From: a virus
Length of the DNA stretch: 28,773 nucleotides
IMG/VR virus record: IMGVR_UViG_3300044641_001538
Span: 1 to 28,773 of that record
Strand: one strand, 5' to 3'
The notes below the pieces were generated by a model. That model saw nothing but the letters and a program-made list of their open reading frames with translations. It was not told where the DNA came from and made no database searches. The first letter of the stretch is position 1. Each line of letters starts with the position of its first letter. The translations under genes were made by a program, and so were the position numbers. Below are positions 3,544-23,656 of this stretch, piece after piece.

Positions 3544-3830
3544 CAAAATACCATCCTTATTAATCCAACAGTGTCTATGGTAGTCAGCAGACAATAGTTA
3601 GCCAGCATACCAAAAGATTTCCTAGTCCAAGCAGCCCAAGCATACATAGCACAGCCAAGAATCCAAAGGGGATAAAGAGTAAGAAGCGGAGGAGTGGGTA
3701 CGGTGAGCGCCATTGTAATACTACAACCAATGCTAATAGCCCAAGCAAAAAGTTCAATAACAAAGCGAACTCGATTAGACTTAAAGTCATCACGTATCCA
3801 ATCAAATGTTGGTTTTAATAGTTCATTCAT
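3543..3830 (-). CDS. Small integral membrane protein, unknown function
   Basis: 95 residues. The N-terminal 25 residues are polar (MNELLKPTFDWIRDDFKSNR). Two to three hydrophobic segments follow: about residues 26-48 (FVIELFAWAISIGCSITMAL), 52-70 (PLLTLYPLWILGCAMYAW) and a weaker C-terminal stretch. An inner-membrane location with a cytoplasmic N terminus is likely. ATG at 3830 overlaps the end of the DsbA-like gene; an upstream GTG at 3854 is possible but less likely. The downstream nuclease-like gene starts inside its stop codon, so the two are probably translationally coupled. No family recognised. Confidence 0.7.
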   Translation of the reverse strand: MNELLKPTFDWIRDDFKSNRVRFVIELFAWAISIGCSITMALTVPTPPLLTLYPLWILGCAMYAWAAWTRKSFGMLANYCLLTTIDTVGLIRMVF

Positions 3831-4092
3831 CTTTGGGTAAACGTCCAGTAACACCCAAAATCATTTCGATGTCGTTCCATGCCTGTTCGTGTTCTTTCCA
3901 ATTGTCTTTGTGTGCAATAGTAATGGCTTTGTTGATAACACTGGGTTTAACTTCTAGTTCTTCAGCCACTGCCTTGACAGTTTCTCTAAGCCCTTCTTTG
4001 AGGTCTTCAACCTCACGTAAGATATTTTGGCCTTCGTTAATTAAACGTTCCAATTTGGCTTTTTCTTCGGGTCCATACATTCTAGTTGACAT
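3823..4092 (-). CDS. dsbA: DsbA-like double-stranded DNA-binding late transcription regulator
   Basis: 89 residues, the same length as T4 DsbA, a small dsDNA-binding protein linked to late transcription. The C-terminal half (EELEVKPSVINKAITIAHKD, then alternating acidic and aliphatic residues) resembles the T4 pattern ELGVDGKMFNRLLALYHKDN. The N-terminal half is a charged helix, probably a coiled coil. The ATG at 4092 follows AAGGAG by 5 nt. It is the first gene after the minus-strand promoter at 4112-4141, so a late regulator is apparently transcribed by the host sigma70 polymerase. The assignment rests on length and C-terminal similarity from memory. Confidence 0.65.
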   Translation of the reverse strand: MSTRMYGPEEKAKLERLINEGQNILREVEDLKEGLRETVKAVAEELEVKPSVINKAITIAHKDNWKEHEQAWNDIEMILGVTGRLPKDE

Positions 4093-4114
4093 AATTACTC
4101 CTTGATGTTATAGT
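4086..4114 (+). promoter_or_regulatory. Sigma70-type promoter (TTGACA-N17-TATAGT) for the exported HExxH protein
   Basis: TTGACA at 4086-4091, 17-bp spacer, TATAGT at 4109-4114. The expected start is near 4121, about 26 nt before the ATG at 4147. The -35 box lies across the start codon of the divergent dsbA-like gene. Confidence 0.75.
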
Positions 4115-4141
4115 ATACACTACTTAGTAACTTAAGGTCAA
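4112..4141 (-). promoter_or_regulatory. Sigma70-type promoter (TTGACC-N18-TATACT) for the dsbA-like operon
   Basis: On the minus strand, TTGACC at 4141-4136, 18-bp spacer, TATACT at 4117-4112. The expected start near 4105 leaves a 13-nt leader containing AAGGAG. The -10 box shares 4112-4114 with the plus-strand -10 box, so two polymerases cannot occupy both promoters at once. Confidence 0.7.
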
Positions 4142-4146
4142 CGTTA

Positions 4147-4464
4147 ATGATGAAAAAACTACTGACAGCAATGCTGATTATAAGCCAAAGTGTTTATGCA
4201 CAAAATTGGGATGATCCCAACAGAAAATTTGAAATGAACAAAAACACTCACGAGGAGATGTTGATCACGGTAAAACCAGTGCCCAATGTTCAACAAGCAT
4301 GCGAAACAGAAAGTCGTCGAAGACTGGGCAAGTCATTTGGGTTTGCAGTTAATGCATGCAGTTTTTGGGACGGCAATCGTTGTGTAATCATTGTGCCTCA
4401 ACGAGCCACTATGCACACATTAGGACACGAATTATTGCACTGTTATCAAGGCAATTGGCATTAA
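4147..4464 (+). CDS. Small exported protein with HExxH zinc-protease-like motif
   Basis: 105 residues, one of two plus-strand genes. Residues 1-18 form a signal peptide (basic MMKK, hydrophobic core, VYA before Gln19), so the product should be periplasmic. Four cysteines (52, 71, 79, 99) could form disulfides. The C terminus reads GHELLHCYQGNWH: H94-E95-L-L-H98 is a classic HExxH zinc-binding and catalytic helix, with a possible third ligand at His105, the last residue. The spacing HExxHxxxGxxH is one residue longer than the metzincin consensus. ATG 4147 and ATG 4150 are both possible; AAGG at 4134-4137 favours 4147. It has its own promoter and terminator. Substrate unknown; a role on host periplasmic proteins is inference. 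Confidence 0.75.
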   Translation: MMKKLLTAMLIISQSVYAQNWDDPNRKFEMNKNTHEEMLITVKPVPNVQQACETESRRRLGKSFGFAVNACSFWDGNRCVIIVPQRATMHTLGHELLHCYQGNWH

Positions 4465-4489
4465 AAAAGCGCCCCTGGGGCGCTTTTTC
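4463..4489. terminator. Bidirectional rho-independent terminator
   Basis: An A-run, then GCGCCCC-T-GGGGCGC (4469-4483), then TTTTT. It sits between the convergent HExxH gene (stop at 4464) and the Pro/Ala-rich gene (stop at 4491), and the flanking A and T runs serve both strands. Confidence 0.9.
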
Positions 4490-4490
4490 T

Positions 4491-5693
4491 TTATCTAAAC
4501 AATGCTGTTCTTATTCGTTCCAAGATAGCATCATCTTGTGATTTGACACTTTCTGCCGCCGGGGTATCGCTAATTTGTCCGGGCAATGCAGGTTTTGCAA
4601 CTGCTGGTGCCGCCGGTTGTGGTGCACCGCCGCTCAATGCAGCCTTTTCGGCTTGTAAGGTAGCAATATATCTTGCATTTGGTGGTAAGTTGGGATTTGC
4701 ACTTTTACTAAATCTATCAATTTCTTTATCAAATTCTTGAGGTGTTTTATATCTAGGTTTCACACTTCCAGTAGCCGGTTGTGCACCACCGCCTGCTGGC
4801 TTAGGTGCCTGTGCTAGTTGTGCCGCTGTTGGTCCGCCTTGACCTCCACGCCCACTACCTGCCATTCCGGGCTTTTGTGCAGATAGAATAGCACCTGCAG
4901 TGTTAGGACCAATAATACCGTCTGCTTTTAATCCGTTGTCTTGTTGAAACTTCTTAATAGCAGCAACATCTGGCTTACCGCCTTTTAGTAGACCCATTGA
5001 GGCTGCATAAGCAGTGATTGCAGGAGTCATTGATTTATTAGCAGCTGGTGCAGCTGGTGCCGCTGGCTGTGCTGCCCCTCCGGCCGGTTTCTCAGCACCT
5101 GGCGGTTCTTGTAACGGAGCATTTGTGCCATCATCATATTTCTCACCCGTTTCTGGATTAATTCCGGCTGGGACTGTTGGCGTTGCACCTGACTGAGTTG
5201 TTACTCCAGGAACTTCTCCAGTATCGCCTCCCCCTGCCGGTTTCTCAGCACCTGGCGGTTCTTGTAACGGAGCATTTGTGCCATCATCATATTTCTCACC
5301 CGTTTCTGGATTAATTCCGGCTGGGACTTGGGCCGGTGCAGCCGGTTGTGCCGCACCTCCAGCTGCTTTACCTTTGTTAGGGGCACGAGCCAAAATAAAC
5401 TCATCGTTGATATCAGGAACGCCACCACCTTTAGTTAACCATGCTTGATCTTGCGGGCTCATTGCTGCAAACTTAGCAGCATCTGCACCTTGATACGGAT
5501 TCGGTACTGCTGGTGCTTCGTTTAAATCGTAACCAAACTCTTTAATCAACATTTCGTAGATAGATGTTTGATTGTTACTTTTACTGACTTGTGGTCTATT
5601 GTTGACTGGTGCAGTAGTATAATGAGCATCCTCATTAAGTATTTGTTTATTTTCGATGTGATCGATTTGAGCGATCAGTTGCTTCATGTCCAT
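4491..5693 (-). CDS. Pro/Ala/Gly-rich protein with peptidoglycan-binding-like module
   Basis: 400 residues, probably virion-associated. It starts MDMKQLIAQIDHIENKQ at ATG 5693, with GGAG 6 nt upstream; a TTG at 5705 lies in the same frame but overlaps that Shine-Dalgarno. Most of the protein is low-complexity linker rich in P, A, G and Q, with two identical 31-residue repeats beginning VPAGINPETGEKYDDG. Around residues 220-275 is a compact module (MTPAITAYAASMGLLKGG ... AIKKFQQDNGLKADGIIGP, then NTAGAIL) that matches the PG_binding_1 fold. Such modules anchor enzymes to murein; no catalytic domain is visible here. LNE occurs near residues 23 and 57, possible prohead-protease sites. It ends the block at the terminator. 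Confidence 0.75.
   Translation of the reverse strand: MDMKQLIAQIDHIENKQILNEDAHYTTAPVNNRPQVSKSNNQTSIYEMLIKEFGYDLNEAPAVPNPYQGADAAKFAAMSPQDQAWLTKGGGVPDINDEFILARAPNKGKAAGGAAQPAAPAQVPAGINPETGEKYDDGTNAPLQEPPGAEKPAGGGDTGEVPGVTTQSGATPTVPAGINPETGEKYDDGTNAPLQEPPGAEKPAGGAAQPAAPAAPAANKSMTPAITAYAASMGLLKGGKPDVAAIKKFQQDNGLKADGIIGPNTAGAILSAQKPGMAGSGRGGQGGPTAAQLAQAPKPAGGGAQPATGSVKPRYKTPQEFDKEIDRFSKSANPNLPPNARYIATLQAEKAALSGGAPQPAAPAVAKPALPGQISDTPAAESVKSQDDAILERIRTALFR
5083..5175. repeat. 93-bp direct repeat, copy 1
   Basis: Identical by eye to 5236-5328 over all 93 bases (31 codons), at an offset of 153 bp within the Pro/Ala-rich gene. Third codon positions are also identical, which argues for recent duplication or gene conversion. 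Confidence 0.9.
5236..5328. repeat. 93-bp direct repeat, copy 2
   Basis: Second copy of the repeat at 5083-5175. The 60 bp between the copies encodes a different Gly/Thr-rich linker. Confidence 0.9.
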
Positions 5694-5705
5694 GCTATTC
5701 TCCAA

Positions 5706-6140
5706 TTATTTTAATGTTGCTCTCAGCATCCAACCATGCTTCATGTGTGCATCTTGCCGCCCAGCAAGAAAATCACTTAACCCCACAGCACCTACTGATT
5801 CAGCAGCGTCATATGCTGTTTTAATACTTTCTAAAACTATGTCATTATCCTGTAAAAGAATCTCTAACATATTTTTTGCTGGAGGAATTCTTTCCTCATC
5901 ATTGATTTCAGCCAACTGACTCAGTCTAGAAAAACTGCCGGGTGCATATGAATCAATCTTACGGATATTTTCTGCAAATGGATCTATGCTGGCATATACT
6001 TCTTGATAGATGGTACCGAAGAAATCATGAAACTGCGAAAACAACATCCCTTCTACATTCCAATGAAAATAATGTGCTTTCAAATAAAATGCAAATGAAT
6101 TAGCAAATGCCTGTTTCAATGCCTGTTTTAATTCATCCAT
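5706..6140 (-). CDS. dps: Dps-family ferritin-like protein
   Basis: 144 residues. Dps proteins form 12-mers that oxidise and store iron, and many protect DNA. The sequence HYFHWNVEGMLFSQFHDFF matches the Dps signature. The four ferroxidase residues of E. coli Dps (H51, H63, D78, E82) have counterparts at H26, H38, D53 and E57 with exactly the same spacing. The N-terminal DNA-binding tail of E. coli Dps is missing: the helix starts at residue 3. The protein is shorter than typical Dps (150-170). Unlike its neighbours it has no capsid-targeting-like N terminus. It lies between two virion-type genes in the same operon, with small gaps on either side. Iron handling or protection of packaged DNA is inference. 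Confidence 0.88.
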   Translation of the reverse strand: MDELKQALKQAFANSFAFYLKAHYFHWNVEGMLFSQFHDFFGTIYQEVYASIDPFAENIRKIDSYAPGSFSRLSQLAEINDEERIPPAKNMLEILLQDNDIVLESIKTAYDAAESVGAVGLSDFLAGRQDAHMKHGWMLRATLK

Positions 6141-6146
6141 TAAACA

Positions 6147-7094
6147 TTACCTACTGTTGGTCTTAGACGCAGTCACTGCTTCTTTGATTCTATCTTTTTT
6201 CTTAGCACGTAATGCAGCCAAATCTTTAGCATCGATGTCTTGATCGTTGTCAGTGTCTAATTTCTTCTGGCCACCTTTAAGTGCTTCGTTGGTCTTCTTG
6301 GCAAATGGATTAACACCTTTCTTAGGAGCAGCACCTTTTTTAGCAAAAGGATTTACACCTTTCTTAGGAGCAGCACCTTTCTTGTCAGCAGCCGCATCTT
6401 TCATCTTCTCTTTTTTATTACCGTCATCGTCAATATCTAAGAAGTCTGGCCTAGCACCTTCTGAAACTTTCTTGCCGTCTTTAACACGAGTCACAGAACC
6501 TGGAAAACGTTTTTCATAGTTCTTGCCTTCTTTCTCTTCGGCTTTATCCATGGCGTTGTCTTTGGCTTTGTCGGCAGCACTTTGTGACTTGGCCTGACTC
6601 TTAGGTTCAGTGTGCGGCTCATCGCTAAAGCGATCTGGATTCTGTTTGTGTTTAGTAACACCTTTCTTTGAACGATCAATCTCGCCACCTGTAGAAGACT
6701 TTTCTTCATTGGCCAGTTGACGCATTTCTTCTAATTCTTTGTCAGTTTTGTGACGCTTGTGTTTCATAGCATCTACTTTTTTCAATGCTTTGACCTTTTC
6801 TTTTGCTTCTACTAGGCGTTGTTGCAACTGACCACGTAGATCATTTTCGTAAACTTCGGCATTTTCCAATGCTTCACCGTATTCAGAAACTTTCATTTCG
6901 TAGGCCATAAAGTGATAAACACTGGCAATGTAGTCAGCAGATTTGGTAATCTTGGCCTGGACCCATCCCTCTAGTTGTTGACCTTCTTGAATCATTTTAA
7001 ACAGTTTGGCACTGTATTGTGCTAACTTGTACAGATCAGCGCGAGCCATGGCTGCTTCGTGATCGTTTTCTGGCATGTGATGCATATCGTGCAT
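6147..7094 (-). CDS. Conserved phage protein with helical N terminus and Lys-rich, EF-hand-like C terminus
   Basis: 315 residues, probably a virion protein; similar proteins occur in marine T4-like phages (from memory). Residues about 16-130 are a predicted helical, coiled-coil domain starting ARADLYKLAQYSAKLFKMI. The rest is Lys/Ala/Glu-rich. Two acidic loops resemble EF-hand or dockerin calcium sites: FLDIDDDGNKKE, and DTDNDQDIDAKDL near the C terminus. Between them lies a 14-residue tandem duplication containing APKKGVNPFA. VSE-G before ARPDFLD and TNE-A before LKGG fit prohead-protease-like sites. ATG 7094 has GGAG 6 nt upstream. Function unknown. Confidence 0.75.
   Translation of the reverse strand: MHDMHHMPENDHEAAMARADLYKLAQYSAKLFKMIQEGQQLEGWVQAKITKSADYIASVYHFMAYEMKVSEYGEALENAEVYENDLRGQLQQRLVEAKEKVKALKKVDAMKHKRHKTDKELEEMRQLANEEKSSTGGEIDRSKKGVTKHKQNPDRFSDEPHTEPKSQAKSQSAADKAKDNAMDKAEEKEGKNYEKRFPGSVTRVKDGKKVSEGARPDFLDIDDDGNKKEKMKDAAADKKGAAPKKGVNPFAKKGAAPKKGVNPFAKKTNEALKGGQKKLDTDNDQDIDAKDLAALRAKKKDRIKEAVTASKTNSR
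6301..6384. repeat. Two tandem 42-bp units in the Lys-rich protein gene
   Basis: Copies at 6301-6342 and 6343-6384 encode a 14-residue unit containing APKKGVNPFA. They differ at only a few bases. Confidence 0.85.
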
Positions 7095-7111
7095 ATTAAA
7101 CTCCGTTCTAT

Positions 7112-7119
7112 TATTTATT
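7112..7119 (-). promoter_or_regulatory. Late-promoter-like box AATAAATA
   Basis: AATAAATA on the minus strand, 17 nt before the ATG at 7094 with GGAG in between. It matches T4 TATAAATA at 7 of 8 positions. It covers the end of the upstream gene, including its TAA stop. Confidence 0.4.
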
Positions 7120-8329
7120 TACGTTTTATCGCTTTACCGCCGCCGAAAATGTTTGATTTCATATCAAGTGCATTTACTGCTGTTCCGTGTTTTGTTTTAG
7201 GTTGATTGACTTTGGGCTGCGGTGGCGCCTTGGTGCCTGATTTACCCGGTGTTCCTATATAACTCTTTTTGCCCCTTGCTGGTCCAGGGCTTAGTTTAGG
7301 ATTCATACCTAAAGTGGCTACATTGCCGGCACTGGTTGCACCTGGAGTTGCAGTTTCTGCAATATCATCCGGCTTGCCAAACGGGTAAACATCAACCCAT
7401 TGGTCTCCTTGTTTTTGAATCCATTTGCCTGGTTTAAATTTACTTGCAATAATTCCGTGCATCTTTAATGCCTGCTCGGGCGTGTCTCTAAAACCTTCTG
7501 CCCGTGCTTCACGTTCTACACGGTTTGAAACCATACGTTGCTTAACACGACCGTCTTTGTAGATATACAACAAATTAGATTCGTCACTCATGTCACGTTC
7601 AGGACGACCAAAACCTGTGCGATTGTCGTCATAGTTTCTACCGCCTTCCGCCACACCTTGCTGACCGTAATCGGCTTCAATGTTGTCCAGCATACGATCA
7701 TAAATTTGTTCAAAGTCATCGTCGCCGTGATACCCTGTATCGATAGAGATATTGTCATACATGTCTTGTATTGCTTGTTCAATTTCTCTGCCGTATTTGC
7801 CTTGTTGTGCATTGTATAGCATGTCAAAGCCGTTGTCGCCGGATCGTGCAACTTTGTGTAAAAATTCTTCAACATCGTTACCATCACGGCCTTCTTCTAC
7901 ACCCTCTTGCGCCGGTGAATCTAATAGCACAAACATCTTGTTGCCCTTGGTATACACTTTGGCACTGACAACTGTGTCACTACCTGATATTCTTGGTCTA
8001 ATACTTTTGTCACCAAATACCATTACGTCGTATGTTTTGCCACTGTATTCCACAGTTGCGCCATCTGACTTTACATTGCTAGGTGCTGGTTCTGCTGCTG
8101 GAGGATTAGGTTTGCCTGTTAGACGATTAATATTTGGATCAGGAAATGATCCGTCCGCATTAGGAGTTACTCTACGAGTTATATCTTGCTCTGCTACTTT
8201 TTCTTTTTTCTTAGGAGCATCGGGTCCTATAACCTTGCGCTCTTCGGCAGGTGTATGTGCTTTAGGCTTCTTGTTATACTTAACAGCCTTGATGCCTTTT
8301 TTGTTTTCTAATAGTTGTCTAATTAACAT
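7115..8329 (-). CDS. Unknown protein with capsid-targeting-like N terminus
   Basis: 404 residues; no family recognised. It begins MLIRQLLENKKG, a short amphipathic peptide ending LLE, like the N termini of its neighbours. A Pro-rich stretch follows (about 60-90). Then comes a small beta-rich segment (about 90-142), an acidic region with EEGRDG and QQGVAEGG (about 143-230), a segment with GLU/ARG-rich helices and WIQKQGDQWVDVYPFG (about 270-320), and a basic Gly/Pro/Lys-rich tail. GVEEG and GVAEG sit at apparent domain borders and fit prohead-protease sites. ATG 8329 overlaps the endolysin stop as TAATG. A packaged or structural virion protein is the best guess. Confidence 0.7.
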   Translation of the reverse strand: MLIRQLLENKKGIKAVKYNKKPKAHTPAEERKVIGPDAPKKKEKVAEQDITRRVTPNADGSFPDPNINRLTGKPNPPAAEPAPSNVKSDGATVEYSGKTYDVMVFGDKSIRPRISGSDTVVSAKVYTKGNKMFVLLDSPAQEGVEEGRDGNDVEEFLHKVARSGDNGFDMLYNAQQGKYGREIEQAIQDMYDNISIDTGYHGDDDFEQIYDRMLDNIEADYGQQGVAEGGRNYDDNRTGFGRPERDMSDESNLLYIYKDGRVKQRMVSNRVEREARAEGFRDTPEQALKMHGIIASKFKPGKWIQKQGDQWVDVYPFGKPDDIAETATPGATSAGNVATLGMNPKLSPGPARGKKSYIGTPGKSGTKAPPQPKVNQPKTKHGTAVNALDMKSNIFGGGKAIKRK

Positions 8330-8961
8330 TATTCTGCTTCCATAAGATCAAGAGCAATATTCCAATGATGAATACGATCTTCGAGACCAATAAACCCACC
8401 ATTGATCTTTTTAGTTAGTGTATTCATATCACCTTGATCACACCATTGGTTTAATTGATTTTTGTGCCAGAACCAGCAGCCACTTAATACTGCCCACTCT
8501 GGTTCTCTTAATAGATCTGGATCACGTACCAGTGTATCGTCTTGGAACAAGTCCTTGGAACATTGTGCGTAATTGCTTTTGCCAGTGATCTGTATAATGC
8601 CACGACCGCGATACTTCCATCCTTCGCCCGACGCTTCTGGGCCATTGCCCATACGTCCGCCGTAGATTTTGTTAGCAATCATTTCAGGCTTGCGTTCATA
8701 TTGACGTGCTAACTCGTCATTGGGGAAATACTTGCCAAACAACCCACGAAGCCCTTTGGCACCGTAGTTTAAATTTTCTTGTAAGATAGTAAAGTCCAGG
8801 CTTTCGTGCTGGCATTGCGCCACAAACCCTGCTACACGTGATGGTGTAACAATATCAAATGCTGGAAAATATTCACAAAACGCATCATACCACAATTGTG
8901 GATTTTTGTTTTTGCTGATACATCTTGCTAATTTATCTAATGTAAAGTCAAACTGAAACAT
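8329..8961 (-). CDS. GH19 (chitinase-like) endolysin
   Basis: 210 residues, a single GH19 domain as used by many phages of Gram-negatives to hydrolyse the peptidoglycan glycan chain. Visible signatures are QCQHES (Glu53, catalytic candidate), QENLNYGAKGLRGLF (Glu62), and GWKYRGRGIIQITGKSNY at about 113-130, the GH19 substrate-cleft motif. There is no signal peptide, so export would rely on the holin encoded about 11 kb away at 19523-20077. AAGGAA lies 8 nt upstream of ATG 8961. The gene sits inside the virion block, separate from the holin, lipase and spanin genes, and lacks the capsid-targeting-like start of its neighbours. A virion-associated role cannot be excluded. Confidence 0.92.
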   Translation of the reverse strand: MFQFDFTLDKLARCISKNKNPQLWYDAFCEYFPAFDIVTPSRVAGFVAQCQHESLDFTILQENLNYGAKGLRGLFGKYFPNDELARQYERKPEMIANKIYGGRMGNGPEASGEGWKYRGRGIIQITGKSNYAQCSKDLFQDDTLVRDPDLLREPEWAVLSGCWFWHKNQLNQWCDQGDMNTLTKKINGGFIGLEDRIHHWNIALDLMEAE

Positions 8962-8981
8962 AGCATTTATTCCTTATGCTA

Positions 8982-8989
8982 TATTTACC
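8982..8989 (-). promoter_or_regulatory. Late-promoter-like box GGTAAATA before the endolysin
   Basis: GGTAAATA on the minus strand ends 20 nt before ATG 8961, with AAGGAA in between. It lies in the 38-nt gap after the gene at 9000-9788. Six of eight positions match T4 TATAAATA. Confidence 0.35.
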
Positions 8990-8999
8990 ATCGTTCAAG

Positions 9000-9788
9000 T
9001 TATTTCTTCTTAGATCGGCCGCTTTTCATATTGGCCATCCAATGTGCTAATTGGCCTTTGCGACCACCTTGTTTAGCCACTTTACGCAGTGTGCTGACTG
9101 ATGCTTTGGTAGGAACTCCATAACGCTTGCTGTCACCTTTGTCCTGAGGATTCTTTCCATCAGCAAAGTTTTCCGCTACAGGTTTGGCAACAATGGGTTT
9201 AATCCTAGTCAATTCGTACATTACTTTGTTACCTGTATCAGCACGGAATGCTTTAAATCCCCATGCTCTGGCATAACGCTGAACTAACGTATCATATAGG
9301 CTAGCTCTACTTTGTGCGTTTTGTCCTTGCTCGACTTCTTTACTGGCTGAAAAGTATACCTTATTGGGCTTGTACTTTTTAATAAATGTTTGTATAGCAC
9401 TTAACACAGTGGCAAACACACGCTGTGCATCACCTTCACCGGTGACTTCTTGGCTGTTGTTTCTAAAGAATTCAACACTCCATGCTTCTTCTTTGGTATC
9501 TTGACTAAATCCCTTGTTGAACATAATGCTTAGGTAGTTGCCATCATCCATTCGGGCTATTGCATCAACATCGCCGTAGTCGCTGGGTTCCCATTTAAGT
9601 TTATAAGGCTGATCAAATGCTTCATTCTCAATGCTTTCGCCACCACCGCCATCACCACCACCTTCTCCCGAGTCTCCACTATAGCCAGCATAGTATCCAT
9701 AGCCGCCGTAAGGTCCAGGACCATAGGCTGCATACCTAGACTTTCGCTTGTAGTTTTTACGTTCGGTTACGAATTCACTGGCACGCAT
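9000..9788 (-). CDS. Virion-type protein with capsid-targeting-like N terminus and basic C terminus
   Basis: 262 residues; function unknown. It starts MRASEFVTERKN, ending VTE, as expected for a prohead-protease-cut leader. Residues 15-50 are Gly/Tyr-rich (YGPGPYGGYGYYAGYSG) and then a Gly/Asp/Glu run. ENEAFDQPYKLKWEPSDYGD opens a globular domain of about 150 residues with alternating strands and helices (YLSIMFNK, FATVLSAIQTFIKKYKPNKV, LVQRYARAWGF), which could be acetyltransferase-like, but I see no diagnostic motif. After PVAENFADGKNPQDKGD comes a basic tail (VSTLRKVAKQGGRKGQ) that recurs in marine myophages. Its ATG directly follows the TAA of the upstream gene. Confidence 0.7.
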   Translation of the reverse strand: MRASEFVTERKNYKRKSRYAAYGPGPYGGYGYYAGYSGDSGEGGGDGGGGESIENEAFDQPYKLKWEPSDYGDVDAIARMDDGNYLSIMFNKGFSQDTKEEAWSVEFFRNNSQEVTGEGDAQRVFATVLSAIQTFIKKYKPNKVYFSASKEVEQGQNAQSRASLYDTLVQRYARAWGFKAFRADTGNKVMYELTRIKPIVAKPVAENFADGKNPQDKGDSKRYGVPTKASVSTLRKVAKQGGRKGQLAHWMANMKSGRSKKK

Positions 9789-10994
9789 TTAGCAGTTCCA
9801 TTTACGCAGTGCTAATGCCTTGCGAGTAGGTTTGCCGTTGGGTTTTTTCATCGGGCCCTTCATGCCACCCATACGAGCGCAAAAACTCTTGCGGCGTTTG
9901 GCTGCTTTTGAACCTGGTTTTAACTTACTAGGTTTAGTTGTCACTGCCATTTGTAATTTACTGCCTGGATTTTCTCTACGATAACTGGCTACACCTTTGG
10001 CATTTAATCCGCCGGTTTTGCTTTTGCCTTTGCTAGTTCTCCAAGCGGCTGCTTCATTTAACAATTCTTGATCATCTACTGATTCAAAATCTTCCCAGAT
10101 AATCTCTGTATCGACTCCGTGCTGTAATGCTAAACTTTCCACCATGTCTTCAATGATGTCAAATTGCTCATCAGCAGAAAGATTTAATCCACTCAACTCT
10201 AATATTCTAACCAGATCGTCCATACCTTCCTCCATATTTTCTTTCTTAGTCTTGACATTGATAGCAGGACCTCTGCGCTCTGGATTGGGGTCTTCTCTAC
10301 GCTTACGACTGGCCGCACTAGCGCGACCTTTTTTACCTAAACTATGTGCTTTGCTCTGTGGCAAACACTTGGGTTTTCCTTCGCTGCTGTCACCTCTAGC
10401 ACAGTCGCCTTTGATTTTACCATCCGGACCAAAACGAACCCATTTATCGCTGAACCACTTTTTTAAATTTTCGTCCAGTGCATCATATTCTTCTTGTGTA
10501 ATACTTTCATTGGAATTGCCCCAGTTGGCAGCACCTTTTTTGCGGCACTGCACTAACGCTCCTGACGCATACGCTGACGGCCACACTTTGTATCTTGATT
10601 TTACTTTGTGATAACAGGCATCCTGTTTTTCGTTTAATTGTCCTTCGGCGACCATTGCTCCGCCGCAACCTGGACATTCACCGTTGCGTATATAAGTTTC
10701 TAGGCTTTCTTTTTTATTCTTGACACAGTTGGGATAGCGTTTGCCAAACATGGTCTTCATACCGTCTTTGTGATAACCCTTCCAGCAGGCTTCATCTAAA
10801 TTATCATGCGAATGGTCTCCATGTGTTTCGCACATGCCGCAATCTTCGCAGACCATTTCCATCTCAACGGATTCATTGTGTTTCTTTTTACCTGCACAAT
10901 GAGCCTTTTGACTAAAGCCTTTAGGATGACTACAGTTAATACTTTTTTTGTATTTCTGAGTCCATCCTTCGTTAATCACTTCGCGTATTTTCAT
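9789..10994 (-). CDS. Modular Cys-rich and Lys-rich virion-type protein with repeated protease-like sites
   Basis: 401 residues, built from short modules familiar from marine T4-like phages, function unknown. It starts MKIREVINEGWTQKYKKS. A Cys/His-rich segment follows (CEDCGMCETHGDHSH, later CPGCGG), probably zinc-binding. Next is an ACWKGYHKDGMK module, then a DACYHKVKSRYKVWPSAYAS module, then a DUF5872-like basic segment (KWVRFGPDGKIKGDC ... CLPQSKAHSLGKKGR). An acidic helical segment precedes the final basic module ending KPTRKALALRKWNC. Modules are preceded by INE-G, LDE-A, VAE-G, LNE-K and LNE-A, which look like prohead-protease cuts. The start ATG overlaps the upstream TGA as ATGA. Confidence 0.75.
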   Translation of the reverse strand: MKIREVINEGWTQKYKKSINCSHPKGFSQKAHCAGKKKHNESVEMEMVCEDCGMCETHGDHSHDNLDEACWKGYHKDGMKTMFGKRYPNCVKNKKESLETYIRNGECPGCGGAMVAEGQLNEKQDACYHKVKSRYKVWPSAYASGALVQCRKKGAANWGNSNESITQEEYDALDENLKKWFSDKWVRFGPDGKIKGDCARGDSSEGKPKCLPQSKAHSLGKKGRASAASRKRREDPNPERRGPAINVKTKKENMEEGMDDLVRILELSGLNLSADEQFDIIEDMVESLALQHGVDTEIIWEDFESVDDQELLNEAAAWRTSKGKSKTGGLNAKGVASYRRENPGSKLQMAVTTKPSKLKPGSKAAKRRKSFCARMGGMKGPMKKPNGKPTRKALALRKWNC

Positions 10995-11365
10995 ATGCCG
11001 TATTTATTTCTTTTGGGTTTAGCAATAGGACTAACAACGTTAGTAGTGTCCAGTTCTTGACTACGCATATCGCCTTTGTTAAGATCTTTATGACTAGCCC
11101 CAACAATCTTGTAACTTTGATTTAACATGGCCTGCTCTTCTTCTGTGTAAGGATGTGCTGTTTTTCTTTTGCCATGCCATGTCTTGGGATCAATGTCTGG
11201 AGGAGTTACCCCGTCTGAACAGGCCAGTGCTAGACTTAGTCTGTATTGTGTATAGTCACCACTACTTCTTTCACCGTCACCGAATGTGTTAAGACCACGA
11301 GTAGCCTGTTGATATCGTTTACCAATCACACCTGCTTTAACTTCAAACAATTCTCGTAGTTTCAC
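10991..11365 (-). CDS. Conserved phage protein, capsid-targeting-like N terminus, GTG start
   Basis: 124 residues. It begins MKLRELFEVKAG (LFE-V) and continues with RYQQATRGLNTFGDGERSSG, a segment I recall from cyanophage hypothetical proteins. Later parts include DIDPKTWHGKRKTAHPYTEEE and a C terminus NVVSPIAKPKRNKYGI. No enzymatic motif is visible. The start is GTG at 11365, overlapping the upstream TGA as GTGA, with GAGGA 8 nt ahead. It is co-operonic with structural-type neighbours. Function unknown; virion or packaged protein is inference. Confidence 0.75.
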   Translation of the reverse strand: MKLRELFEVKAGVIGKRYQQATRGLNTFGDGERSSGDYTQYRLSLALACSDGVTPPDIDPKTWHGKRKTAHPYTEEEQAMLNQSYKIVGASHKDLNKGDMRSQELDTTNVVSPIAKPKRNKYGI

Positions 11366-11583
11366 TTCTTGCGTCCTCTAAAATGGCTGTTAACACTGCC
11401 AGTCATATATGGTAATGTAAACCACAACTTAAACCAATCTTTGTCTCCGGGCTTTAGACCTAGATCCTTTTCTTTCTGTTTAATTGCAGCAGCCGTATGA
11501 CTCATGTTCTCTATATTTACCGGTTGGAATCCTTTAAATTCATTAATGCCAGCCAACTTCTTAATGTAATCTAATTCATCCAT
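11362..11583 (-). CDS. Small conserved phage protein
   Basis: 73 residues starting MDELDYIKKLAGINEFKG at ATG 11583, one base after the upstream TAA. INE at residue 13-15 fits the prohead-protease pattern seen in neighbours. The C-terminal half (KPGDKDWFKLWFTLPYMTG) is aromatic-rich and recalls short proteins beside virion genes in cyanophages. A longer reading from 11667 is possible in frame but lacks a start signal and would overlap the preceding gene by 80 bases. Function unknown. Confidence 0.75.
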   Translation of the reverse strand: MDELDYIKKLAGINEFKGFQPVNIENMSHTAAAIKQKEKDLGLKPGDKDWFKLWFTLPYMTGSVNSHFRGRKK

Positions 11584-11584
11584 G

Positions 11585-13006
11585 TTATTCCGCCACACCT
11601 TGAATCTTACGTTTAGATAATTCTTGCTGTAGTGCCTGTAGTTTGTTAGGAGCACGGGCAATGGCATTGCGAATATCGCCTGCTACATTTTTAGGAAGTT
11701 TAGCAAGTATGTCATTGACGATCTGTTCAACTTGTGCATTTTGTTGCCCGGGAACTTTGCTTTTCTCAGGTTTAATTTCAGGTTCATCATACTCGTCGTC
11801 TGTATCGTCTTCTGCTTCTAAATTGGCAAGATAAGATTCGTATTCTTCTCTACGAGAGTTCCAACTGTAGGCAAACTGTGTTAGGCTTTGATCACCCATC
11901 TGTTTGCCCATCTTGAATAATATAGGAGGCAATGATCTGCTGATTTCTGTAAATGTAATACGACTTTCACGATCTTCGCTAGCGTCTTTTAAATAGTTGA
12001 TCAATGGCGCAGCATATCTTGGTGATTGTTTAGACAGTGCATACAAGTCGGCCTGTAGTTTATCAAAGTAGAAGTTGTGAAACCATTGAGCACTTTGACC
12101 GGCAGCATTGCGGTGGAAGCCTTTTAGTGAACCGTTGTTTTCCACCCAACGCTTGGCCATGGCTTTTAGTTTGCCGTATAATTGTGTTATAGGTTCGCCA
12201 TTGGTAGCAATACTTTTTAATGTGCTAGGTAACGATGGACCTTCACCTAATGAAATTTCAGCCACGGCCTGTTTGGCTTTCTTGGCATTTTTGGCCGCAG
12301 GCACAGCCGCCATACGTTGTTTGGCCTTGTTCATTAAGTCCATTACTTCGTCGTCGCTGAGATCATCGGGCATGGCATCTCGCCATACTGCAAATTGTTC
12401 TTCTTCACTTTTGTCAGGATCAGTCAACACTGCTCGCATGGGAGTAGCACGTGGGCCTTGTTGGTAATCTGGCGCTGCTGGATCACTGCCTGGTGCCTTG
12501 GTATCTTGTCTAGAAATTATTTCTAGATCTTTTAAGCCTGCTCGCTGATAGGGGGGAACGCCGGACTTATCGGGATTAGTTAAGAAACTAAAAGAATCTT
12601 TTTCTAACTCCCCTACAACTAAAATAACTTTACTAAATCCGTCCTCGGCAATTTTGGCCAACACTTTATCTAACGTACTAGCGTCTGCAGATGCTACACT
12701 GAACACTTCTGCATTTTGCGGAAACACTTTTCTATAAGTGGCTAGTTTTTCTTCGGGAGTCAGTGGATCATCTTTGGTCTTGGTAAATGTAGGCCTATCT
12801 GCCCACGGTTGACCAGTTGCAGGGTCCACAAGACTGGTTCTTGACACTACAAAATATGCCTTGGCATCCATTTCTTGTGCATGATGTAACACAGCCCTTG
12901 CCAGTAACATATGTCCCTTGTGGCCCATACCACGACCCCAGCCTAACACTGCGGTGTTGTTTTGACTAGTTTTTGCAATTTCTTCAAACAGTTGACGTAA
13001 TAACAT
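11585..13006 (-). CDS. HIGH-type nucleotidylyltransferase-like protein with capsid-targeting-like N terminus
   Basis: 473 residues. The leader MLLRQLFEEIAK (LFE-E) is followed by a Rossmann-like domain (about 15-165) opening AVLGWGRGMGHKGHMLLARA. This resembles the first strand and G-x-x-x-G-H loop of cytidylyltransferase and NMN adenylyltransferase folds: H-K-G-H stands where HxGH is expected. Later VILVVGELEKDSF fits a following strand. Annotators usually call such phage proteins cytidylyltransferases; the substrate is unknown. A second, mainly helical part starts after QAVAEISLGEG (about residue 250), and the protein ends KIQGVAE, exactly at a protease-like motif. ATG 13006 follows the upstream TAA by one base, with GAGGA 9-10 nt ahead. 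Confidence 0.72.
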   Translation of the reverse strand: MLLRQLFEEIAKTSQNNTAVLGWGRGMGHKGHMLLARAVLHHAQEMDAKAYFVVSRTSLVDPATGQPWADRPTFTKTKDDPLTPEEKLATYRKVFPQNAEVFSVASADASTLDKVLAKIAEDGFSKVILVVGELEKDSFSFLTNPDKSGVPPYQRAGLKDLEIISRQDTKAPGSDPAAPDYQQGPRATPMRAVLTDPDKSEEEQFAVWRDAMPDDLSDDEVMDLMNKAKQRMAAVPAAKNAKKAKQAVAEISLGEGPSLPSTLKSIATNGEPITQLYGKLKAMAKRWVENNGSLKGFHRNAAGQSAQWFHNFYFDKLQADLYALSKQSPRYAAPLINYLKDASEDRESRITFTEISRSLPPILFKMGKQMGDQSLTQFAYSWNSRREEYESYLANLEAEDDTDDEYDEPEIKPEKSKVPGQQNAQVEQIVNDILAKLPKNVAGDIRNAIARAPNKLQALQQELSKRKIQGVAE

Positions 13007-13007
13007 A

Positions 13008-14210
13008 TTAATCTTTCCTCGGAGCCCATGTGGCTTGATCAATTGCTTTAACGTGTTGACCAGTTACGGGATCTATATACACATACCCTTCAGGTTTGGT
13101 TTGTCTAATGCCGCTGTGTGTTCCAGCACTGGCTCGTCTGTGCATGTCCATCTTGGCTGCACTTAGTTTTTCCACAGCAGTTAACACCGCATCTAAGCCT
13201 GGATTATTTAAAATTTCTGTTGTTCTTGATCTAGGAATTTTTTTAGCATCCATGGCATTTTCAGCCCATGCTTTGAACTTTTCTTTAACTCCGGCTACTC
13301 GCAGATTTTCGTTATAGAATTTATACAGTATATCACCAAACAAGTTAACAACTTCTTCTTCACCGCTAGGACCGGGTCGCTTGCGTTGTAGGAAACTGTC
13401 AATAGCCTGCTCGTTTTCATCAATAAAAGCATTAGCATCGTTCAATAAGTCGGTATCGATGCCTGGTGCTTGCTCTACATAGGTAGTACCTTGAACTATA
13501 ACGTCTGGGGTTGACAACCCTTCCGCATCGGGATATCTGCCTTCATCGCTACCAATTGATTGATAATATCCTGTGGCAGCAACCATCAACTTGGCACCTT
13601 TGATACGTTTACCTAGATCACTGTTTTTGCCGATATGAAATCCGGAGATATTAGGAGAAAATTCATACTCTCCGGTTTCGGGATTTAGTATTGCTTGCGC
13701 AGGTTTACCATTGGGTTTTCTGCCAGGATAAAATAATAGGCCGCCTTCTAAGAATCCTTCCTCAGGACTGACTTGTTCAAAGTAAGGCCATAGATCGGCA
13801 AGTTGATTGGCATAGGCCTGTCTTTGTTTTTCTTTACCTGGTTCAGTTTTACCTGTTCCTAGAATAAAGTTTTTAATATCGTTGGGGCTAGACATCAGTG
13901 TAGTTACACCTTCTCCGGCCTGTGTTTTACCGCGCTTTAAATATTCCCAAGCATTTTTAGGTATGAGTCTAAATGTACCATCTTCGTCGCGTCCCCAATA
14001 CACTACAGGACTGCCATCCCATTTAATTTCGTTGGCACCGCCAGTGCTGGCCATGCCTTGTATAATTCTCACAGCAGCACGACCACCTTCGGCACCAGCA
14101 GGTATATTCTTTGATGGTATACCTGTAAAGATTAAATCTTCGACGTGTTGATACTTACGTCCAACAGTTGGTGCAGCAGATTCTTTGAGAACAAATTCAC
14201 GAAATCTCAT
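13008..14210 (-). CDS. Ligase-fold nucleotidyltransferase-like protein (DUF6267-like)
   Basis: 400 residues. The leader MRFREFVLKESAA resembles the capsid-targeting peptides nearby. Residues 61-68 (EIKWDGSP) match motif I of covalent nucleotidyltransferases (ExKxDG, as in LigA ELKLDG), which makes K63 the candidate adenylated lysine. Around 152-161, GFLEGGLLFY resembles motif III. Near the C terminus, PEGYVYIDP (E374, G375) and HVKAIDQ (K388) resemble motifs IV and V, although the gap from motif III is unusually long. From memory, cyanophage DUF6267 proteins share the IKWDG and WPxFE segments. Ligase or other nucleotidyl-transfer activity is inference. ATG 14210 overlaps the upstream stop as ATGA. 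Confidence 0.68.
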   Translation of the reverse strand: MRFREFVLKESAAPTVGRKYQHVEDLIFTGIPSKNIPAGAEGGRAAVRIIQGMASTGGANEIKWDGSPVVYWGRDEDGTFRLIPKNAWEYLKRGKTQAGEGVTTLMSSPNDIKNFILGTGKTEPGKEKQRQAYANQLADLWPYFEQVSPEEGFLEGGLLFYPGRKPNGKPAQAILNPETGEYEFSPNISGFHIGKNSDLGKRIKGAKLMVAATGYYQSIGSDEGRYPDAEGLSTPDVIVQGTTYVEQAPGIDTDLLNDANAFIDENEQAIDSFLQRKRPGPSGEEEVVNLFGDILYKFYNENLRVAGVKEKFKAWAENAMDAKKIPRSRTTEILNNPGLDAVLTAVEKLSAAKMDMHRRASAGTHSGIRQTKPEGYVYIDPVTGQHVKAIDQATWAPRKD

Positions 14211-14953
14211 ATCAATTTGTTCCTCATACGCACAAACCATTCGTTGGTACCAACATCGGGGGTAGCAGCCTGCCAACTGGAACTGGCTTTGGCCTTGGCA
14301 AATATTTCATTGCGTTTGGCTTCATCGGGAATTGCAGCCATGATACTTTCTACACTTCCTAGGTCAGCAGCAGTTGCATTATTACCCAACAAATAACGTG
14401 CAATGTCGTCTAACTCATCACTTAAAAACTCGCTCTTCTTACCGGCAGCATCACGTTTGTAAAGCCCTTCATCTGGACTCCACAACAGTCCTTGACTGCT
14501 GGCCAGCGTGTTCATCATCATTTGTTTATTAACACCTTTGTATGGACTGCCTTTGGGTATGTTATGTATATGAAATTTATAAACTCTAGCCGCGTTTTTA
14601 ACTACCTTTATGTCTACTTGATGATACTCATCACCAAACGGTAGTTTTACATGCACAGTTACAGCAATACGTCTAGTTTCTAAACCTTTTTCCTGTAGAT
14701 ATTTTTCTAATTCAATACGAATCTGTTTTGAATCTTCTACTTTAAAAAATTCAGCGGCAATATCTAAATCAACCATGACATCCAAATCGCCGCTCATTTT
14801 TCCAGGTGTTGGAGTTGCGCCGCTGCCTATCCTGTAGATATTAAGACCAGTATCCTGTAGATACTTTTCTAATTCTTTTTCTAAATCTTCAGCAATGGCC
14901 TGATCAAACGCTGTGCATTCCGGCCATATGTTTCCGCCTTCAGTTAACATCAT
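14207..14953 (-). CDS. Polymerase-beta-superfamily nucleotidyltransferase-like protein
   Basis: 248 residues. G43-S44, an 11-residue gap, then D56-L-D58 and a third acidic residue in HQVDIKV (D114) reproduce the catalytic pattern of the pol-beta nucleotidyltransferase superfamily (hGS, DxD, third Asp). That superfamily includes CCA-adding enzymes, minimal nucleotidyltransferases and aminoglycoside-modifying enzymes. The C-terminal half (about 145-248) is helical and may bind substrate. It begins MMLTEGGNIWP: LTE-G at residues 3-6 looks like a very short prohead-protease-cut leader. It overlaps the genes on both sides, so it is translationally coupled to the ligase-like gene. Substrate unknown. 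Confidence 0.72.
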   Translation of the reverse strand: MMLTEGGNIWPECTAFDQAIAEDLEKELEKYLQDTGLNIYRIGSGATPTPGKMSGDLDVMVDLDIAAEFFKVEDSKQIRIELEKYLQEKGLETRRIAVTVHVKLPFGDEYHQVDIKVVKNAARVYKFHIHNIPKGSPYKGVNKQMMMNTLASSQGLLWSPDEGLYKRDAAGKKSEFLSDELDDIARYLLGNNATAADLGSVESIMAAIPDEAKRNEIFAKAKASSSWQAATPDVGTNEWFVRMRNKLI

Positions 14954-15290
14954 CGTAATGGCCTTCTTCGATATTTTTTAATTCTTGTCTATGAAGATTT
15001 TCACAGATTTCTTTTACTAATTCTTCGTCTAATTCACCCGGCAAGTTTTTTTCTTCGGTAAACGTTTCTTTATATACTTTGTAAGCATGATTTACCATTG
15101 CTTCAAACGCCTTGGCCGTAAATTTAGTCTTATTGGCTTTGGCTTCTTTTACCTTCATGACAAAAGGATAATAATTTTTCCTGTAGAATTCAGGATCATT
15201 GTTCATAAAGTATTGCAGATCGTCTGCTAGATCATAACTAGGAGAAAATGCTTCTTCAGAACTGGGACTAAAAATTTCAAATATTTTCAT
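14940..15290 (-). CDS. Conserved phage protein of unknown function
   Basis: 116 residues starting MKIFEIFSPSSEEAFSPS. The remainder is acidic and mostly helical (DLQYFMNNDPEFYRKNYYPF, FEAMVNHAYKVYKETF), ending with a Glu/Asp-rich helix. It resembles small conserved proteins found with virion genes in T4-like marine phages. KIFE at the N terminus weakly fits the leader pattern of its neighbours. It appears to be the first gene of the 15290-to-4491 operon: a CGATAAATA late-type box ends 32 nt upstream. The Shine-Dalgarno is weak (GATGGTG). Confidence 0.75.
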   Translation of the reverse strand: MKIFEIFSPSSEEAFSPSYDLADDLQYFMNNDPEFYRKNYYPFVMKVKEAKANKTKFTAKAFEAMVNHAYKVYKETFTEEKNLPGELDEELVKEICENLHRQELKNIEEGHYDDVN

Positions 15291-21883: not shown

Positions 21884-22371
21884 TTCTTTGGCCTTTCTGC
21901 GGCGTTATTCATATCTACCGCTTTGTTATGTTCAATAATGATATCTTGCGGGATTGGACATTTCTCAATGAATATTTTTACTTCTTCTTTTTCTTTAATC
22001 ACACGATCAATGTATTCAATCTGTGTCTTGCCTTTTTCCTTGATAATTTTAGTTTTCTCAACTATTTTTTCTTGGATCACTGTATTTGTTTGCTGTGATT
22101 TTTCTTCTGCTATCTTAACTGCTGCTTCAAGTTTAGACACTCGCTCACGCCAGGCCATTTCTGTGTCATAGCCGCCACGCAGCCATACACCTAAAACTAG
22201 TAACACAATGCCAAGTGGTTGCAGTACTTTAACATAATTTCCGTAAAATGGAATCCACTTGCCTAACCAACCGGCAAGTACTCCTGTAATACCAGCAATG
22301 ATTATGGCCCAATAGAGCCCACTTAACACAGCGTCCGGTATTAGATCCAGCATCCAGTAAATTTGATTCAT
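21880..22371 (-). CDS. Inner-membrane spanin subunit (i-spanin, Rz-type)
   Basis: 163 residues. Two hydrophobic segments (about 15-37 and 48-66) are followed by an almost continuous coiled-coil-forming stretch rich in Lys, Glu and Ile (about 75-135). The C-terminal CPIPQDIIIEHNKAVDMN is typical of Rz-like i-spanins. Canonical Rz has one N-terminal membrane segment; two segments here would place both ends in the periplasm. It immediately precedes the o-spanin gene with ATGA overlap, and its own ATG overlaps the upstream stop. Together these genes would complete outer-membrane disruption. Confidence 0.72.
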   Translation of the reverse strand: MNQIYWMLDLIPDAVLSGLYWAIIIAGITGVLAGWLGKWIPFYGNYVKVLQPLGIVLLVLGVWLRGGYDTEMAWRERVSKLEAAVKIAEEKSQQTNTVIQEKIVEKTKIIKEKGKTQIEYIDRVIKEKEEVKIFIEKCPIPQDIIIEHNKAVDMNNAAERPKK

Positions 22372-23102
22372 CTTCTCAACTCCGCTACCAATGCATATCC
22401 ATTATTTTCTATAATAAATTTATTGTCAATTTTGTTAATGTTATACGGGCCGATGAATTTTGTAAGATATAATATTTCAGAAATATCACTAGAGTTCATT
22501 TGGAATGCTCCTTGAACAGATTCGTAAATTCTTTGTTTGCGACCAAAATCAGATACTATCAAATTCAACGATCCGTTGAATGGTTTTTCTAGCGTCAATT
22601 GGTCATGATCGAGATCAATGCTTTCTAAATAACTTTTGTTAAAAAAGTTATCCACATTTTCCATCTGAACTTCATTGATTTTGTTTTCATACTGATTGGG
22701 TGTAGTTGGCACAGCATCAGTCAACGACTCGAGGTCAGCGAGATTTGATCTAAAACTTCTATAGTATCTAAATCTAAAATCTTCAGTGTCCACTAATTTC
22801 TTTACACCATCTAATATTTCCACAATGCGCGAACTTAGATTTTTATCACGTTCCATTTCAACAAATACTTTGTACTTGCCTTCTTTGACTTCGCCCGGGC
22901 TAACATCTGCGTCTAACACAAATTTATAACCTTTTTCAATAAAACTTTCTAGATCCTCGGCAGCATCTTTACTTTTTACATTGAAAGAAATTACAGAAAC
23001 ATCTTGATCATTGCCCATTTTACTGCTGTATGAATCAATTTCAAATACATTGTCAACAAGGTATCTCAAATCGGCAGGTCTTAACTCTTCATTAAGGTTC
23101 AT
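22368..23102 (-). CDS. Conserved T4-like phage protein, unknown function
   Basis: 244 residues, acidic. The N-terminal part (LNEELRPADLRYLVDNVFEI and on to about 115) looks like an alternating alpha/beta domain with FNVKSKDAAEDLESFIEKGY and KYKVFVEMERDKNLSSRIVE. A linker with many Asn follows, then a second domain with LNLIVSDFGRKQRIYESVQG and ISEILYLTKFIGPYNINK. No catalytic motif or membrane segment seen. ATG 23102 overlaps the upstream TGA. The two-domain layout and its neighbour suggest a structural or packaging-related role, but I cannot name a T4 equivalent. Confidence 0.65.
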   Translation of the reverse strand: MNLNEELRPADLRYLVDNVFEIDSYSSKMGNDQDVSVISFNVKSKDAAEDLESFIEKGYKFVLDADVSPGEVKEGKYKVFVEMERDKNLSSRIVEILDGVKKLVDTEDFRFRYYRSFRSNLADLESLTDAVPTTPNQYENKINEVQMENVDNFFNKSYLESIDLDHDQLTLEKPFNGSLNLIVSDFGRKQRIYESVQGAFQMNSSDISEILYLTKFIGPYNINKIDNKFIIENNGYALVAELRR

Positions 23103-23656
23103 ACTGCTGCTCCTGGTACTGGTGGAGTTCCAGTGACTGCCGGTGCTCCAGCAGCCGGTGCAACTGCTGGAGCAGCAACATCTTGTCCTTGACTAGAATC
23201 TACTCTGCTGTTGCGACCAAAACGTTCGTTGCGTAATTTATCCATGTAACCTTCAAACATGTCAAACACTAATTTTTTAGGCATGGAGATAGTCACTACC
23301 CAAATAGCATGACGATCTAACTTGCCTTTCTTAGTGCCAGGACGAAAATCGTCAGGACTTTCAATTTTGCGAGGTTGTAGAATAAAACTTTCTTCAAATT
23401 TTACTCTACAGTCGTGTTCAAGCAGTCGTTTAGCAGCCCGGGGATTGGGCATGTTTTCTTTCGGCCACATGAATTTACAAGTTACCCAATGTCGATCAAC
23501 ACGGGGTCCCTCTAATAATTCGCCTTCTAACCAATTTTCGTAGACGTAAATATCCAGAATTTCTAACACACGTTCATAGTCTTTTAAGACGCTCAGTGCA
23601 GTATTATTACTGTATAAGTTTTCTATATTTTTAATAACTTCTAAAATGTCAGCCAT
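23099..23656 (-). CDS. Conserved T4-like phage protein with Ala/Pro-rich tail
   Basis: 185 residues. The core (about 10-150) contains LDIYVYENWLEGELLEGP, VTCKFMWPKENMPNP, FRPGTKKGKLDRHAIWVVTI and MPKKLVFDMFEGYMDKL, segments I recall from hypothetical proteins of T4-like cyanophages. The last 30 residues are an Ala/Pro/Val/Gly-rich tail. No catalytic motif is evident. It is the first gene of the operon running through the lysis genes (23656 to about 19523). A late-type ACTAAATA box ends 23 nt upstream; the Shine-Dalgarno is poor. Confidence 0.65.
   Translation of the reverse strand: MADILEVIKNIENLYSNNTALSVLKDYERVLEILDIYVYENWLEGELLEGPRVDRHWVTCKFMWPKENMPNPRAAKRLLEHDCRVKFEESFILQPRKIESPDDFRPGTKKGKLDRHAIWVVTISMPKKLVFDMFEGYMDKLRNERFGRNSRVDSSQGQDVAAPAVAPAAGAPAVTGTPPVPGAAV

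Follow-up and report, generated by a model that had tools for sequence, protein, structure and literature searches.

Why should a run of unrelated genes in a T4-like phage open with the same kind of short peptide? The window analysed here comes from an uncultivated T4-like phage. It is a fragment of 28,773 bases whose genes, nearly all on the minus strand, include ones resembling Clp, DnaJ, PhoH, clamp-loader and DNA polymerase genes. A preliminary description had picked out at least seven unrelated proteins with such a peptide, ending in (L/I/V)xE, and had read it as a capsid-targeting leader on proteins that are loaded into the head, cut by a gp21-type protease and injected with the DNA. Neither a capsid gene nor a gp21 gene was found in the window, no head genes were found on the fragment, and a search of the window for PF04466 (a terminase family) was negative. 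PHROG families with the label virion structural protein, head and packaging, are matched by both 22368–23102 and 23099–23656.

For comparison, a homologue of the window's DUF6267 protein was located at 80 IMG/VR loci, and five long contigs (G001–G004 and G006) were picked from these as relatives, their genes being called with a simple caller of our own. The block is bounded by the clp-like gene on one side and the DNA polymerase gene on the other. Its features in the window are as follows (↓ marks a cleavage junction).

4491–5693, minus strand: peptidoglycan-binding-domain protein with a longer leader-like start, MDMKQLIAQIDHIENKQILNE.
5706–6140, minus strand: Dps/ferritin-like protein, without leader.
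6147–7094, minus strand: 315-aa protein without leader, with the short motif PDFLDxDxDGNKKE.
7115–8329, minus strand: 404-aa protein with leader MLIRQLLE at 8306–8329 and a copy of the capsid N-fist near the C-terminus.
7310–7363, minus strand: the N-fist copy, IAETATPGATSAGNVATL, residues 323–340, resembling the relatives' capsid junction LAE↓TASAGTTSAGNVATL.
8329–8961, minus strand: GH19 endolysin, without leader.
9000–9788, minus strand: 262-aa protein with leader MRASEFVTE at 9762–9788; weak DUF6934 similarity, under the Pfam cut-off.
9789–10994, minus strand: DUF5872/DUF6321 protein with leader MKIREVINE at 10968–10994.
10991–11365, minus strand: 124-aa protein with leader MKLRELFE at 11342–11365; GTG start with AGAGGA upstream.
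11362–11583, minus strand: 73-aa protein beginning MDELDYIKKLAGINE, a possible, weak leader variant.
11585–13006, minus strand: cytidylyltransferase/NMNAT-like protein (GWGRGMGHKGHM) with leader MLLRQLFE at 12983–13006.
13008–14210, minus strand: DUF6267 ligase-like protein with leader MRFREFVLKE at 14181–14210; KxDG invariant.
14207–14953, minus strand: polymerase-X-like nucleotidyltransferase with MMLTE↓GGN at 14939–14953, the LxE junction kept and no helix.
14940–15290, minus strand: 116-aa protein beginning MKIFEIFSPSSEE, with a leader-like start, MKIFEIF, and no clear LxE.

All seven peptides stand at plausible gene starts. The relatives support these starts: the N-termini of 25 distinct DUF6267 proteins and 27 distinct cytidylyltransferases begin likewise. 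Six of the seven proteins carry the leader; the seventh peptide, MMLTE, is a bare LxE↓GGN junction with no preceding helix. Dps and the GH19 endolysin indeed lack a leader, and Dps-like genes also occur within the relatives' blocks. The original list was incomplete, having missed the variants at 14940–15290 and 4491–5693.

A pattern with the spacing of T4 leaders matched 6 of 13 block genes and 0 of 21 genes elsewhere in the window (p=1.3e-3), one of the six matches (MHDMHHMPE) being spurious and MRFREFVLKE and MMLTE being missed. When N-termini were surveyed across the window and five relatives, leader-like starts were found on 22 of 59 block genes versus 43 of 731 others, so such starts are not equally common off the block (5.9%); the null for the pattern, taken from internal methionines, was 1.6–5.3%, varying by genome. 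The pattern had been composed after the leaders were seen, and we therefore also trained an independent profile, solely on leaders from T4 (IPII/III, Alt and gp24) and S-CREM2. This profile recovered 11/59 block genes versus 35/731 others in the window and five relatives (p=2.7e-4); in the window by itself the counts (2/13 versus 0/21) were not significant. Matches outside the block include the head genes gp22 and gp21 and some that resemble further cargo. Internal LxE sites showed no real excess in block proteins (5.3 versus 4.3 per 1,000 residues), and TAAATA-type late-promoter boxes were not enriched upstream of block genes. The clustering of these genes, and the loose leader-like starts on unrelated genes outside the block, might suggest generic amphipathic starts that aid operon translation or folding and have no role in the head; the enrichment over other genes is a first argument against this.

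A second argument lies in the junction. The DUF6267 leaders vary in sequence, yet in 25 of 25 distinct ones the last three residues are [LIV]xE and the next is A, S or V, near the T4 gp21 consensus, with V also seen in the L/I position. The polymerase-X-like family keeps LxE↓GGN whether or not a helix stands in front, and P1' in some window leaders is R, V, N or E, less typical than A, S or G. The relatives' capsid protein has the junction KYLAE↓TASAG, KYLAE↓SA or YLME↓SPTAG (KYLME↓SP), with the cut placed by sequence only, and in small proteins of the relatives the glutamate of the leader coincides with that of the capsid protein's junction (LFE↓TASAGATSAGNV versus LAE↓TASAGTTSAGNV). Conservation across divergent leaders, and a junction held in common with the capsid protein, both speak against generic starts. 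A gp21-family prohead protease (peptidase S77), sought outside the window, is present in four relatives. Applied to T4, a strict form of the pattern finds IPII, IPIII, Alt, gp24, gp2 and gp61.1, together with two probable false matches. Mutational work on IPIII, as reviewed, places targeting chiefly at residues 4 and 7 and processing at residues 8 and 10 (PMC9026906).

Virion proteomes of two cyanophages provide a third line of evidence. The published S-CREM2 proteome comprises 52 proteins (PMC10665884), and all five S-CREM2 proteins with strict leaders (gp6, gp13, gp14, gp136 and gp154) are among them: 5 of 28 MS-detected non-structural proteins have such a leader versus 0 of 167 undetected proteins (Fisher 4e-5). 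Given this association, the enrichment and the junction, we consider generic starts a very unlikely explanation. The authors of the S-CREM2 study noted that such proteins may be co-purified and not packaged (PMC10665884). In S-SCSM1, whose virion proteins were taken as marked in its record, strict leaders are not enriched among virion proteins (1/21 versus 2/174, p=0.29), ORF91 (MKSFLQFLKE↓A) being the only virion protein with one. Homologues of the DUF6321 protein (9789–10994) were MS-detected as S-CREM2 gp160 and gp137 and S-SCSM1 ORF29, and the family of 11585–13006 is found in virions as S-CREM2 gp154, linked through relatives, and S-SCSM1 ORF91. The homologue evidence is thus reproduced in the second cyanophage, whereas the leader excess appears in S-CREM2 alone. 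The PDFLDxDxDGNKKE motif of 6147–7094 is common to the virion proteins S-CREM2 gp111 and S-SCSM1 ORF92, and the window endolysin matches both gp208 (detected) and gp169 (undetected) of S-CREM2. The S-CREM2 virion protein gp12 (7704–10313), annotated as Cas9-like, contains LRFASFMAE↓A at residues 17–25, perhaps a leader behind a misplaced start.

The capsid-targeting reading is thus supported by the S77 protease, the [LIV]xE↓small-residue junction, the match to the capsid junction, a leader of like kind on a small gene adjoining the portal gene and the cyanophage MS data. The preliminary description was right on the leader and probably on packaging, and we infer that packaging and cleavage take place in this phage.

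T4 IPI and Alt have similar leaders and function inside the host cell, and several block proteins are predicted enzymes. Both points argue against a role confined to assembly, in which the block proteins would enter the head as core or scaffold parts and not as injected effectors. Such a role would fit a small gene adjoining the portal gene in the relatives, which has the same leader kind, and the influence of T4 IPIII on head assembly (PMC9026906); we judge it unlikely. By analogy with T4, we infer instead that the block proteins are probably injected with the DNA.

The 404-aa protein carries a further link to the head that, like the connection to published virion proteomes, goes beyond the preliminary description. 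For each phage, the capsid sequence beginning at the cut was searched against that phage's own proteome, a relative's capsid being used for the window; S-SM1 and Cr30, whose capsid arms the script did not recognise, were excluded. One match per phage stood out: 7115–8329 in the window, 220296 in G001, 10138 in G002, 65734 in G003, gp160 in S-CREM2 and gp61.1 in T4. The window copy scored 72 versus a shuffled maximum of 48. Copies were significant in the window, G001–G003, T4, S-CREM2 and S-SCSM1 and borderline in G006 (p=0.012); the S-SCSM1 match is ORF97, which is 61 residues long, was detected by MS as a virion protein and scored 83 versus a null maximum of 49. No copy was found in P-SSM2 or C48C1, and the best candidate in HTVC008M (115347–116426) was suggestive yet below the null maximum.

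At the relatives' loci, 25 distinct ORF segments copy the cleavage junction of the major capsid protein and the first residues of its mature form. Just upstream of the copy stands [LIVMYF]xE in 22 of them and TLE↓SA in the other three, so glutamate precedes every copy among the 25. In the small proteins, such as the 68-aa product of G001 220296 (MRLRELYE↓TASGGATSAGNVV), this glutamate also ends the leader; leader and capsid junction therefore coincide. Similarity is block-diagonal by lineage, copies matching the capsids of their own group and not those of other groups: the window copy scores 62–72 against its own group's arms versus 23–25 against T4-group arms.

T4 itself offers an example in gene 61.1 (AF158101, 18966–19130), whose product reads as the leader MKTFKEFIKE, an N-fist copy like that of gp23 and then a lysine-rich tail; in the late-promoter search, no TATAAATA turned up within 90 bases of the gene. 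By tblastn, 1,343 phage records contain a match to the gp61.1 family, and a search with gp23 reaches the 61.1 locus in 9 of 11 Straboviridae, phages chosen for having 61.1. A finer correspondence within Straboviridae, each gp61.1 arm matching its own phage's capsid, was tried and gave no signal (p=0.39; the Aeromonas P19 arm was mispicked). The window protein shows no full-length homology to gp61.1 and is alike in kind, not a family member. PHROGs keeps the N-fist families 1823, 2086 and 696 separate from capsid family 138, T4 gp23 overlapping phrog_1823 at residues 59–101 only. The family of S-CREM2 gp160 and S-SCSM1 ORF97, phrog_696, is labelled 'major head protein'; its overlap with the capsid protein is confined to ~30 residues at the N-terminus, and the N-fist copy has probably given rise to a false label.

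What might the copy do? In the portions of two studies that concern gp23, the T4 N-fist is described as residues 66–91, ordered on expansion and touching four subunits in two capsomers, and it is the capsid's own N-fist that these portions describe (PMC7136217, PMC9958956). The copy suggests a second packaging or docking tag, and our preferred reading is that N-fist-bearing cargo would dock in N-fist sites. It could instead serve only to lengthen the site that the prohead protease recognises, with no docking. The glutamate at P1 of the copies, preceded in three by LE instead of LxE, would fit such a site, as would the observation that copies in Straboviridae do not best match their own phage's capsid. 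Against this, the similarity continues ~15–35 residues beyond the cut, the proven gp21 substrates IPII, IPIII, Alt and gp24 have no copy, and S-SCSM1 ORF97 has a copy with no LxE ahead of it; an extended site seems to us rather unlikely. That these genes are relics of capsid-gene recombination, their segment functionless, might be guessed from certain database records that call them major capsid protein. The spread of the gp61.1 family, the presence of copies on different proteins in different lineages, and the MS detection of two copies as virion proteins make relics very unlikely, and docking stays the preferred reading. The motif [RK][RK]LAG[IL], which stands at the C-terminus of the relatives' scaffold protein gp22, also lies N- or C-terminally in window 11362–11583 and G001 375302–376186, and is a possible third head signal in common.

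We also considered what the cargo enzymes may be. In the polymerase-X-like protein, the Pol-beta palm features GS (G43 S44), DxD (D56, D58) and a third Asp (D114) are invariant, and its predicted fold matches polymerase lambda/beta across the palm and further (E=1e-7, probability 1.00, ~205 columns, TM ~0.5), so it appears to be a family X polymerase-like protein. Among 28 DUF6267 sequences, numbered without Met1, KWDG (62–65), EGG (154–156), PEGY (372–375) and K387 are invariant; the assignment of these as ligase motifs is our own. The best Foldseek matches of DUF6267 (13008–14210) are ligases, weakly (E=1.5e-3, TM ~0.2), and PDB sequence searches with three cargo proteins gave nothing convincing. 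G001 and G002 have a single ORF of ~620 residues with a polymerase-X-like start, which, from its length, position and N-terminus, apparently joins the polymerase-X-like protein to DUF6267. On these predicted folds, it is reasonable to see the two as a putative virion-borne pair for gap filling and sealing. Pelagibacter phage HTVC008M has a KWDG-bearing gene of DUF6267-like look (3547–4779) that starts MYNDLLVE↓DK and lies two genes before a cytidyltransferase gene.

Overall, the best explanation, and in our judgement a probable one, is that the block is a set of head-cargo genes of a T4-like phage, their products leader-targeted and gp21-cut; the packaging reading is well supported, not proven. 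The leader, a short stretch at the N-terminus in which two hydrophobic residues are spaced three apart, would bind the prohead core, and the phage's gp21-type protease would cut after its [LIV]xE. Once freed, the proteins would stay beside the DNA inside the head and, as T4 IPs and Alt do, probably accompany it into the cell. For 7115–8329, the capsid-junction/N-fist copy could fill N-fist sites between capsomers after head expansion, holding the protein on the shell. The polymerase-X-like, ligase-like and NMNAT/cytidylyltransferase-like payload could plausibly serve at entry to repair nucleic acid and supply cofactors, and leaders and N-fist copy together suggest that the virus packs an enzyme kit to inject with its DNA. 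More tentatively, we propose as possible, if somewhat doubtful, that T4-like phages have a second, unrecognised cargo hold, with a lineage's own N-fist copy in shell sites, and that here a polymerase-X-like/ligase-like repair pair is injected.

The leader could serve as a sequence-based predictor of head-carried proteins in T4-like phages, and 'virion-associated' enzymes of cyanophages would shift from possible contaminants to predicted cargo. For gp61.1, which in a model phage carries the annotation hypothetical, the N-fist copy points to a role that can be tested. A polymerase and ligase pair in the virion, if true, would be a new idea on how phage DNA is mended at entry.

The window leaders resemble T4 capsid-targeting sequences/gp21 propeptides in being short and N-terminal, of the order of 8–20 residues, with a hydrophobic pair three apart and L/I-x-E before the cut, and come closest to the propeptides of gp24 (MAKINELLRE) and Alt (MELITELFDE). 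Unlike that of T4 (IPI, IPII, IPIII, Alt, gp24), the window's set is larger, consists of predicted enzymes and is clustered in a single block; some of its leaders are shorter by a residue, and the P1' position varies more. Ejection proteins of the phiKZ/SPN3US type are comparable in that they reside in the head, are cleaved behind an x-x-E type motif and leave with the DNA (PMC9026906, PMC5694885), but most of their propeptides are much longer, and in phiKZ the motif is S/A-x-E. The predicted folds of 14207–14953 and, weakly, 13008–14210 approach those of family X DNA polymerases and ATP-dependent nucleic-acid ligases, respectively, although the window proteins have no detectable sequence match to solved members. 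The cyanophage NMNAT/cytidylyltransferases gp154 and ORF91, distant homologues of 11585–13006 (~25–29% identity), are MS-detected and carry the leaders MKNFSSFLTE and MKSFLQFLKE, which are of the T4 IP kind, whereas the window's is of the gp24/Alt kind. Finally, T4 gp61.1 (phrog_1823) and its longer relatives (phrog_2086) likewise combine a CTS-like leader with a capsid copy, of gp23 residues 59–101. That copy follows the T4-group capsid and comes after the leader, whereas the window copy follows the capsid of its own group and is found towards the C-terminus, a long way from the leader.
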